From Exophiala sp. HKRS030 (lineage: Eukaryota; Ascomycota; Eurotiomycetes; Chaetothyriales; Herpotrichiellaceae): a DNA stretch of 64,000 nucleotides. Numbering within the stretch: the stretch's first letter is position 1; each line of letters opens with the position of its first letter. The stretch covers positions 4,154,001 to 4,218,000 of the forward strand of contig JAHWDD010000005.1 of the NCBI GenBank assembly GCA_023897205.1, written 5' to 3'. This document shows, one piece after another, positions 159 through 54,531 of this stretch. Under the pieces are notes generated by a model. The model ran no database searches. It was not told the DNA's origin and saw nothing but the letters and a program-made list of their open reading frames with translations. The position numbers and the translations under genes are program-made.

Positions 159-193
159 GTTGATACGACACCTGCAGGATTCGAACCTGCGCT

Positions 194-245
194 CTGAAGG
201 GAAAGTTAGCTTTGTCTCTATCAGGAGTATCTGGAATCTGCTTAC
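194..245 (-). other. spliceosomal-type intron inside tRNA-Ser
   Basis: This 52-nt insertion in the variable arm begins GTAAGC and ends CTTCAG. It has a GCTAAC branch-point match at 205-210, followed by a pyrimidine-rich TTTCCCTTC tract. It lies between the A and B boxes. Excision at GT/AG joins TTCGGG to AGCGCAGG, the standard variable arm of fungal tRNA-Ser. Length and signals equal those of the mRNA introns elsewhere in this window. Confidence 0.85.
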
Positions 246-261
246 CCCGAAGGAACTACCT

Positions 262-279
262 GGCATACAGGGAACTGCA
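262..279 (-). other. canonical tRNA intron of tRNA-Ser
   Basis: 18 nt between A37 and A38, the position cut by the tRNA splicing endonuclease. Removal closes the CTACC/GGTAG anticodon stem. Confidence 0.88.
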
Positions 280-316
280 TAGCAGGGTAGCGCGATAACC
301 ACTCCGCCAAAGTGCC

Positions 317-52359: not shown

Positions 52360-52995
52360 CAGGTCAACGTGCAGGTTATGGAAAAAAAATAGTGAGCGAT
52401 TTGATACTGGAGTTTTGATAGCACTGCGTTGGCAAACACCATAGACACACTCGAAGAAATCAGCCACGGCTTTGGATGATTTTTTACATGCCTGGCCTTG
52501 CTTCTCTCGAGAAATTATAGAGAGTAATACTTTAGGTTCAAGGGCAGTTGGACTTGAGCATTTTTGTTGCCGATATATAGAGTACCTAGGTACTCAACTG
52601 AACGGGGTTGTCTTGATGTACTTTTCTTAGCAGCGACTAGGGGTAGGGGCACAAAGAAGAGTAAAAACTGCTCCGAGCTCACGTGCGACTCGCCAGGAGG
52701 CCGTTTTGCTTTCAAAAGTCATCACCCTTCCTCTCACCTTCGCATTCAAGGGCCGACAGCGACGACGAGCAGTTCAGTTTGCGTGCTATAGCCAACGGCA
52801 GAACGGCTGGAAGAACGCGCAAGTTTACATAGCATTCCTGCATAGCTTCTCTAAGATGTGTCCTGTCTACCGTGGCCCATGACCAATGTGTTACGGTAGT
52901 GTCGCTCCTATGACTGAAAGTGTCCTAGCGGGGTGCTCCAAGACATTACGGAGTAGGCTGACGCAAGTTCCAGCCAGGCCAAAAACTAAAAAAAC
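52360..52995. other. intergenic, nothing recognised
   Basis: 0.64 kb between the HET gene and the tRNA-Pro terminator. No gene. Confidence 0.5.
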
Positions 52996-53001
52996 AAAAA
53001 A
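52996..53001 (-). terminator. Pol III terminator of tRNA-Pro
   Basis: T6 on the transcribed strand 5 nt past the tRNA end, backed up by a T7 run at 52988-52994. Typical RNA polymerase III termination signals. Confidence 0.7.
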
Positions 53002-53042
53002 GAATGGGCGCAATCCAGGGTTCGAACCTGGGGCCTCTCGCA

Positions 53043-53058
53043 ATTAACTTAGAGTAGT
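53043..53058 (-). other. canonical tRNA intron of tRNA-Pro
   Basis: 16 nt after G37 and before T38, the standard tRNA-endonuclease position. Confidence 0.85.
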
Positions 53059-53063
53059 CCCTA

Positions 53064-53113
53064 CTGTTTATTGTTAGTCGAATGTCAGGGATAGATCCCA
53101 TTGGGTTACTTAC
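53064..53113 (-). other. spliceosomal-type intron inside tRNA-Pro
   Basis: 50 nt between tRNA positions 32 and 33, inside the anticodon loop. It has donor GTAAGT (full fungal consensus), branch site CGACTAAC at 53073-53080, and acceptor AACAG about 10 nt after the branch A. The spacing is within the range of the protein-gene introns in this window. Its presence prevents formation of an anticodon loop until removed. Confidence 0.87.
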
Positions 53114-53144
53114 AGCGAGAATCATACCACTAGACCAATTGCGC

Positions 53145-54531
53145 AGTGTCAAAGGTTGGTGAATTCTTGTGGAAACCCACCGCTTTTGTTGGATGGATTT
53201 TTGAACGTATAATTTATGACCTGTGAGACAAATATAATAGTAGAGTGTGGACGAGCTGTTACGCTAACTATTTAGCGTCGGATATTGCCTTGTATGCGAG
53301 ATTACGAGAACATATTCAGCTGTTTTAACTAGGCTCACAGGCAGACAAACCCCTATTATGGGCTAACTATCCTTCAGCCCTATACATTGAGCATCTTAGC
53401 GTTTGGGTGCGCATATTTAAAGATATTTAGAGCATAGATGCCGTGATTAGATATCTATATAGACAGTGCACCAGCAGGGCTCAACAGCTATCGTCAATTA
53501 CTCTCTTCATCAAACTCTCGTTTATTAGCTTACCATAAAGCCTTGGCCTATGAATAAGACAATGCCCTATTACACCTGAATTAAATGATAGATTATACTA
53601 AGGGAAGAAGCTCGATTATTCCACGAAGTGAAAGAGGAAGTGTACAAGACTACAGCCATCCTCCTAGATCATGCTGAGGAGAACCTAGAGTAAGTCTCGT
53701 ACTTGAGCGTCACAATGGTGATAGTATTCATGTCGTCAAGAAGCCTGGGTGAGAGGTATTTGATGTGAAAAACCCGGCATTTTGTCTCTCTGTGGTCAGT
53801 CCATTTATAAAGCCGCCCCATGTGCAAGTAAGCCATCAACCCATACGTCCGAATCGAATGCATCAGAGAGATTTATTACACTCTCAGATCTTGACGTTAC
53901 GGATCCTGCTCTGGTGGCCTCGAGTGCCGACACGGCTTGAGTCACTTGCAATAGCAGCAGAACCGCGAAATGCAATACGGTAAGCGCACATCCCGAGCGC
54001 CACGAGGTGCGCCACGACGATGAATCGAGAAGGCCAGTCACAGCTACGTTCAGGAGGACGCACGACGTGATCTTTCACCCGACTCACGCGAGCCGGGATG
54101 GAGCACAGGGCGGCATCACCCTCGTCCTAAAGAGGGGTGAGTCGGGAGCAGTTTTTACATATGTACCTTGGCAACGACTGGGATAGGGTCAAGGCTGGGA
54201 TTCTCCTATTTAGGTCATCGAGTCATGTCGGGTCATTTCAGATCGTGTTTCTCGTTTTCTGGTGGAATATTTGACAGAATTACGCATATTATCCTAGGGC
54301 CAACCTGGACCAACATACAGGAAGCTTCTCGAGGGTCGACGTAGAGGGTATCATATGTACAACAATGTCTCACTACTAGACAAATCGACAGCACCATATG
54401 TATCGCAGAAACAACTCCAAGTTCCCAACTCCTATCTTCCTATATCCCAAGCCTGAGTCATGTTATCATCATCGTTCAACCTGCCTACTCTTGAGCAAAT
54501 CTTGTTCTTCAGCAAACGCCCAAATACCACG
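53145..54531. other. AT-rich stop-dense region, possible RIP-damaged element
   Basis: 1.4 kb. The part at about 53180-53700 is clearly more AT-rich than its surroundings. It has many TAA/TAG in all frames and no intact frame, as expected of a transposon remnant degraded by C-to-T repeat-induced mutation. I cannot identify the element. The rest is ordinary intergenic sequence. Confidence 0.4.

Follow-up and report, generated by a model that had tools for sequence, protein, structure and literature searches.

A 50-nt insert splits the anticodon loop of a nuclear tRNA-Pro(AGG) gene between positions 32 and 33, next to an ordinary tRNA intron at 37/38. This insert is very probably a U2-type spliceosomal intron in a functional tRNA gene, and a member of a set of at least 22, spread over 19 tRNA genes in the same genome. 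The best reading of these sequences is that U2-type introns have colonised nuclear tRNA genes and would be excised by the spliceosome ahead of the tRNA endonuclease. We searched 59.8 Mb in 50 contigs, of which a stretch of 64 kb, here called the window (C5:4154001-4218000), holds the Pro gene. The original prediction, made from the window, was that an mRNA-type intron lies between positions 32 and 33, close to a canonical one at 37/38; this is supported, and is greatly strengthened by a pattern that extends across the genome and includes the tRNA-Ser(GCT) gene of the window, both of which go beyond what was seen at that time.

Two split tRNA genes in the window

The anatomy of both genes is given in Table 1. 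The Pro insert is as it had been described, with GTAAGT after T32, a predicted branch site CGACTAAC and the acceptor end AACAG, and lies on the minus strand, which had been left unnamed; with its 3' part it reads GTAAGT..CGACTAACAATAAACAG. Taking out both introns was expected to give a 72-nt tRNA-Pro(AGG) with the loop TTAGGGT, and in our parse it does; ARAGORN names the gene Pro(agg) when the 50 nt have been taken out. The mature molecule is a cloverleaf with U33, anticodon AGG and the body of a tRNA-Pro, and of the stems reported to be perfect, the acceptor (7/7), anticodon (5/5) and T stems (5/5) are fully paired. The T-run predicted downstream is also present. The 16-nt intron is at the canonical 37/38 position, and the 50-nt insert is not.

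Table 1. Features of the two split tRNA genes, in window positions
Feature	Position	Strand	Basis
tRNA-Pro(AGG) gene, two introns	53144-53007	-	cloverleaf parse and C8 paralogue
tRNA-Pro(AGG) 5' exon, positions 1-32, 31 nt	53114..53144	-	identical 24-nt stretch in C8 paralogue
Probable 50-nt mRNA-type (U2-type) intron at 32/33, GTAAGT..CGACTAAC..CAG, predicted branch A 53074	53064..53113	-	absent from C8 paralogue; motif tally
tRNA-Pro exon TAGGG (U33, anticodon AGG, G37)	53059..53063	-	sequence reading
Canonical 16-nt tRNA intron, 37/38	53043..53058	-	related 21-nt intron in C8 paralogue
tRNA-Pro 3' exon, position 38 to discriminator	53007..53042	-	sequence reading
T6 run, probable Pol III terminator	52996..53001	-	sequence (coordinates on + strand)
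tRNA-Ser(GCT) gene, 18-nt 37/38 intron and variable-arm insert	316-166	-	Rfam, cloverleaf parse
tRNA-Ser(GCT) 5' exon	280..316	-	Rfam, parse
Canonical 18-nt tRNA intron of Ser(GCT)	262..279	-	parse
tRNA-Ser(GCT) middle exon	246..261	-	parse
Probable 52-nt mRNA-type intron, Ser variable arm, GTAAGC..GCTAAC..CAG	194..245	-	absent from C8 paralogue L049; intron-signature and B-box pattern match
tRNA-Ser(GCT) 3' exon	166..193	-	Rfam, parse

Standard tools do not see the Pro gene for what it appears to be. With introns allowed, ARAGORN calls the intact gene tRNA-Tyr(gta) with a 68-nt intron, and in the default setting of the tool used it calls no tRNA anywhere in the 64-kb window. At E<=1, Rfam matches no family in the region of the gene (52900-53250), which is unsurprising because the gene is split by the insert; a search of the window at the gathering threshold recovers the Ser gene and misses the Pro gene. 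Folding of the mature and precursor Pro sequences gave minimum-energy structures without the cloverleaf and was kept out of the evidence. In a cloverleaf scan, the best parse of the Pro gene scores 29.0 without an extra cut and 30.5 with one, and ten cuts tie at 30.5, including a second GT..AG cut of 66 nt. Cloverleaf geometry by itself leaves the boundaries of the insert unfixed, and the decisive evidence is a paralogue on another contig.

This paralogue, a second tRNA-Pro(AGG) at G000:C8:1251857-1251968, was found by BLAST of the genome with a 171-nt query and lacks the 50-nt insert. Query positions 5-47 and 98-163 align to two abutting stretches of C8, and positions 48-97, which are exactly 50 nt and equal window 53113-53064, have no counterpart there. 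A motif-blind comparison of the two genes that allows a single gap has one best cut, a GT..AG cut, with 70/72 identity. The C8 gene retains a related 21-nt intron at 37/38. Comparison of the tRNA-Pro(AGG) genes had been proposed as a check, with normal copies elsewhere counting against the original prediction, and the insert-free C8 copy is that half of the refutation; given this copy, the window gene may be dispensable and is possibly decaying. For tRNA-Asp, by contrast, every full-length copy found has an intron of this type. For Ser(GCT), the C8 paralogue lacks the 52-nt insert (66/81 identity), and the GT-AG cut is one of two co-optimal cuts.

mRNA-type inserts in tRNA genes across the genome

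About a quarter of the tRNA genes that we curated (19/71) hold mRNA-type inserts, 22 in all, besides or without a 37/38 intron; most have ordinary 37/38 introns as well. The genes are those for Pro AGG, CGG and TGG; Ala CGC and two Ala AGC; Ser GCT and Ser AGA (two inserts); two Arg TCT; Gly TCC; three Asp GTC; Lys TTT; Ile AAT (three inserts); Leu CAA and TAA; and Asn GTT. The inserts are spread over the molecule, with eight in the D-loop, three in the D-stem, one just before position 26, two in the anticodon stem, one in the anticodon loop, four in the variable arm and three where the T-loop ends; both sites of Ser AGA were assigned by hand. In 14/19 split genes, 14-31 exon bases precede the first insert. 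The 21 further inserts in 18 other tRNA genes put the Pro insert far beyond chance. The tRNA-Ile(AAT) gene (L140, G000:C5:53620-54000) has four introns, three of mRNA type (D-loop, before position 26, T-loop) and one canonical.

Of the 71 genes, an Rfam scan that scored 63 of 1707 candidates supplied 42, another 19 were curated from the window and from hits to patterns, and the B-box regions added ten, which have a 37/38 intron only. Beyond the Rfam scan, genes were collected with a Pro body pattern and B-box patterns, the regions being read one by one, and the figure of 22 inserts in 19 genes is a lower bound. One B-box pattern, with all matches listed, had 95 against 10 for its reversed control; another matched 530 places against 441 for its control, 100 of them listed, and its 30 loci are outside the counts. 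Of 38 B-box regions, 23 gave counted genes and 15 were left out, namely L132, L144, L146 (tRNA-like repeats), L152 and L154, and ten more in which no tRNA could be recognised (L128, L134, L141, L142, L147, L149, L150, L156, L160 and L162). L132 (G000:C2:4407380-4407770, minus strand) is a His-like tRNA gene with an odd acceptor stem and a possible D-loop insert, GTGAGT..GCTAAC..TAG, without which ARAGORN calls His(gtg); it is excluded from the counts. At L146 (G000:C6:3268900-3271000), four to five diverged tRNA-like repeats of ~230 nt have a B box and T-runs, and are possibly a tRNA-derived SINE. By eye, a CAACAAT-like motif lies shortly upstream of many tRNA genes (L129, L139, L148, L151, L158 and others) and is perhaps a start-site or Pol III element.

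Splice signals of the inserts

All 22 inserts run from GT to AG, a tally that is partly selected because GT-AG guided the curation; 19/22 begin with GTRNG, and 20/22 contain CTRAY, with Pro CGG and the second Ile insert as the two that do not. Their lengths are 47-65 nt, and the branch A of the 20 CTRAY inserts is 9-19 nt from the insert end. The donors are GTAAGC (nine), GTAAGT (three), GTATGT (three) and others (seven). Among 64 ordinary 37/38 introns, which served as the control, none is GT-AG, seven have CTRAY anywhere and one has CTRAY with a final AG (Fisher p 6e-21 for GT-AG, 3e-16 for branch and AG). The 37/38 introns are also mostly shorter, at 7-53 nt with one of 96 nt. On this tally, a chance GT..AG was rejected.

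In length and signals, the inserts resemble the protein-gene introns of the window, for which there are only two comparators, both mapped by homology with Exophiala mesophila proteins: one of 51 nt in the gene for GPI transamidase subunit U (GTAAGC..ACTGAC..CAG) and one of 59 nt in a sugar dehydrogenase-like gene (GTATGT..GCTGAC..TAG). A third junction, of 83 nt, was dropped for its unconvincing splice signals. The window's Pescadillo and subunit U proteins are 82% and 80% identical to those of E. mesophila, and we place this black-yeast-like fungus near that species, in the Chaetothyriales.

Tests blind to the motifs

Because many inserts had been recognised by their motifs, we ran two tests that ignore them. 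In a scan using only the cloverleaf, over all cut places and lengths, the GT-AG cut shares the best score in 13/17 genes with a single insert. The ties number up to 329 for loop inserts, and only 1-3 for Pro TGG, Ala CGC, Ala AGC a and two Asp genes; in the four misses (Pro CGG, Asp a, Ala AGC b and Lys), the GT-AG cut falls 0.5-1.5 points short. The second test was the single-gap comparison with sister genes, in which GT-AG is among the co-optimal cuts in 19/21 cases, the misses being the third Ile insert and Gly, which was compared with a dissimilar Gly gene (18/25). For half-gene comparisons, the query pieces were cut at the curated intron lengths, so that position is tested and length is not; both are tested in the whole-gene pairs with 37/38 introns removed, which are Pro AGG, CGG and TGG, Ala CGC, Ser GCT, Leu TAA and the three Asp genes. 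Lys(TTT) is outside these 21 comparisons.

Genome searches for intron signals adjacent to a B box gave no excess over reversed-pattern controls (4 vs 6 and 2 vs 2), but 3/4 and 2/2 of the matches are within tRNA genes; a match on C13 does not look like a tRNA. ARAGORN offers a further view of the curated cuts: it names the correct isotype for 1/19 split genes when they are intact, for 16/19 when the GT-AG inserts alone are removed, and for 19/19 when the canonical introns are removed too.

tRNA-Asp and the possible function of split genes

tRNA-Asp(GTC) is the sole Asp acceptor in eukaryotes. All three full-length Asp(GTC) genes found are interrupted by an mRNA-type intron, which lies in the D-loop in one gene and at 24/25 in the other two, and the mature sequences of the three are identical (72/72), while the two introns at the common site differ greatly. 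We found no insert-free Asp copy, either in a search with the mature sequence, which returned the three genes, or in the Rfam scan, with its 63 of 1707 candidates scored. Four Asp 3' ends appear in the complete list of B-box matches, and they belong to the three full-length genes and a 5'-truncated tandem copy; the mature-sequence search overlooked this truncated copy and so is not exhaustive, and an uninterrupted Asp copy should be easier to find than split ones. The tandem genes are at L129 (G000:C2:904880-905475), where the second, truncated gene, which is outside the counts, keeps two mRNA-type intron remnants.

Identical Asp exons, diverging introns and intact splice signals are what selection on the spliced product would give, although gene conversion could also hold the exons alike. 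Exact patterns of the split Asp gene had no match in viral and other contig sets, neither of which is meant to hold fungi. Every gene found for Arg(TCT) (two), Ala(AGC) (two), Pro(TGG), Lys(TTT), Ala(CGC) and Leu(CAA) is split, in a survey that is incomplete. The acceptor stem pairs weakly (4.0-4.5 of 7) in three genes: Asn on C9, Ala CGC and Ala AGC a.

Pol III context

One of the two U6 genes found has an mRNA-type insert, GTTCGT..ATAACTAAC..CAG, directly after ACAGAGAAG (L165, G000:C5:2143871-2144024, minus strand); the other, L164, lacks it. Among the 5S rRNA genes found, which are 120-124 nt long, 0/20 have an insert, from 47 of 2940 candidates scored, where a split copy would score lower. 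Several tRNA inserts fall on promoter elements. Those at the end of the T-loop in three genes (L016, L015 and L140) interrupt the B box within its final bases, so that it reads GGTTCRAN(T) and then GT.., and the D-loop inserts fall within what we take to be the limits of the A box. Transcription by Pol III of genes with split A or B boxes is not self-evident. The Pro TGG insert contains a T5 run, a possible premature terminator.

Discussion

Our proposal is that Pol III would transcribe the split tRNA gene, and that the nuclear spliceosome would recognise GUAAGN, CUAAC and YAG in the transcript and release the insert in lariat form. Once restored, the anticodon loop could fold with the 37/38 intron still present, and the tRNA endonuclease and ligase would take this intron out, probably after nuclear export as in yeast. 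For Pro, the spliceosome-first order seems forced, because the insert sits within the anticodon loop that the endonuclease must recognise. Judging from the sequences, we think it likely that tRNA maturation is obligately dual in this genome, with the spliceosome needed on pre-tRNAs of essential isotypes (all full-length Asp genes found and one Ile) before the endonuclease, so that the supply of tRNAs for decoding would depend on the spliceosome.

Were the inserts instead non-canonical tRNA introns, cut out by a relaxed endonuclease of the archaeal or red-algal style at bulge-helix-bulge structures, the GT and AG would be incidental. We regard this as very unlikely. Such introns are indeed known in archaea, nucleomorphs and Cyanidioschyzon (portions of PMC4090602), and most split genes also have an ordinary 37/38 intron. 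However, the endonuclease has no need of GT-AG ends or of CTRAY, which the inserts share and which set them apart from 37/38 introns. A strict bulge-helix-bulge is found at 0/22 inserts by a home-made rule, which is weak evidence since the rule also finds 0/23 canonical introns, and a 4-bp helix between intron and 3' exon occurs in six inserts where 4.4 are expected. The GT/CTRAY/AG signature is the best argument against an endonuclease intron; the argument of the original prediction, that the position is one never used by the endonuclease, is too strong, because tRNA introns occur at many non-canonical sites in archaea, and also in nucleomorphs and a red alga. Even less likely is that the split genes are non-functional and that their role is filled by intact tRNA genes at other loci. 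Short insertions in the D or T arms of eukaryotic tRNA genes mostly affect a single gene among many synonymous ones, and the genes concerned are presumed to be pseudogenes (portions of PMC4090602), and the insert-free Pro(AGG), the truncated Asp gene of L129 and the three weak acceptor stems all fit decay, but the full-length Asp genes are identical when mature despite their different inserts, no insert-free Asp copy was found, and the genes found in our incomplete survey for six further anticodons are all split.

It is hardly credible that we have misread the Pro gene, and that it has one long 37/38 intron of 68 nt in a tRNA-Tyr(GTA) and no intron at 32/33. ARAGORN makes this call, and the parse without an extra cut is just 1.5 points lower, but such a gene would be without U33 and would combine a Tyr anticodon with a body that is 70/72 identical to tRNA-Pro, and this reading is at odds with a C8 paralogue that lacks exactly the 50 nt. 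Other kinds of intron were considered and rejected. An intron of 47-65 nt is too short for a group I or group II ribozyme core, and for the Pro insert the absence of any Rfam family in the region searched agrees with this. The 171-nt query matched only its own gene and the C8 paralogue, which argues against mobile copies, with limited sensitivity and for the Pro insert only. When the 22 inserts were compared pairwise, none looked like a recent copy from an introner family; among the 231 pairs, the best (Gly TCC and Ser GCT) scores 14.0 and at least three more exceed 8.5, the maximum of 400 shuffles, which destroy the shared branch motif.

Like the U2-type introns of fungal protein genes, the inserts are GT-AG introns of about 50-60 nt with GTAAGN or GTATGT donors and a CTAAC or CTGAC branch; unlike those, they are hosted by tRNA genes, with no reading frame, a structured product and a presumably uncapped Pol III transcript. 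They share the Pro gene with a canonical 16-nt tRNA intron, and differ from that class, which is never GT-AG in our set, has one fixed position and is mostly shorter. Mass gain of spliceosomal introns is also known from the introner-like elements of fungi, whose near-identical copies are not seen among the inserts here. Koehrer and colleagues are said to have shown, in EMBO J in 1990, that an engineered yeast tRNA precursor with a pre-mRNA intron is spliced by the spliceosome, which would mean that in principle the spliceosome can act on a tRNA precursor; that construct was artificial, whereas the introns proposed here would be natural, present in many genes and apparently unavoidable for tRNA-Asp. 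A natural precedent is in Schizosaccharomyces pombe, whose U6 snRNA genes have mRNA-type introns (Tani and Ohshima 1989, 1991, cited in PMC10484740); according to the portions of that source used here, the U6 intron lies near catalytic bases and is thought to derive from reverse splicing. This too is a spliceosomal intron in a Pol III gene, and one U6 copy of the present genome is likewise split. In contrast to U6, tRNAs are not parts of the spliceosome, and the sites here are spread across many isotypes and positions.

Non-canonical tRNA introns in eukaryotes were supposed to be rare in a 2014 review (PMC4090602, in the portions used here), whose main text has no word beginning with 'spliceosom', and the main text of an introner survey (PMC9860276) has none beginning with 'tRNA'. 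Our search of the open-access literature, which leaves most subscription papers and preprint servers outside its scope, found no description of spliceosomal introns that occur naturally in tRNA genes, and none appears in the portions drawn on here of PMC4090602, PMC11782384, PMC13149111, PMC3978253 and PMC9894930. U2-type introns and the U6 precedent are known; the location of such introns in tRNA genes on this scale appears to be new.

For tRNA biology, spliceosomal processing of pre-tRNAs would be a new pathway. If it operates as the sequences suggest, tRNA supply would be coupled to the spliceosome, and the tRNA sets of fungi may be misjudged, as gene finders would misname or miss split genes in the way that ARAGORN does with all but one of the 19. 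The tolerance of Pol III genes for interrupted A and B boxes, and the way in which TFIIIC copes with them, would become questions in their own right. The many sites with intron-free paralogues would also make the mechanism of spliceosomal intron gain, for example reverse splicing into small RNAs followed by copying into DNA, directly testable.
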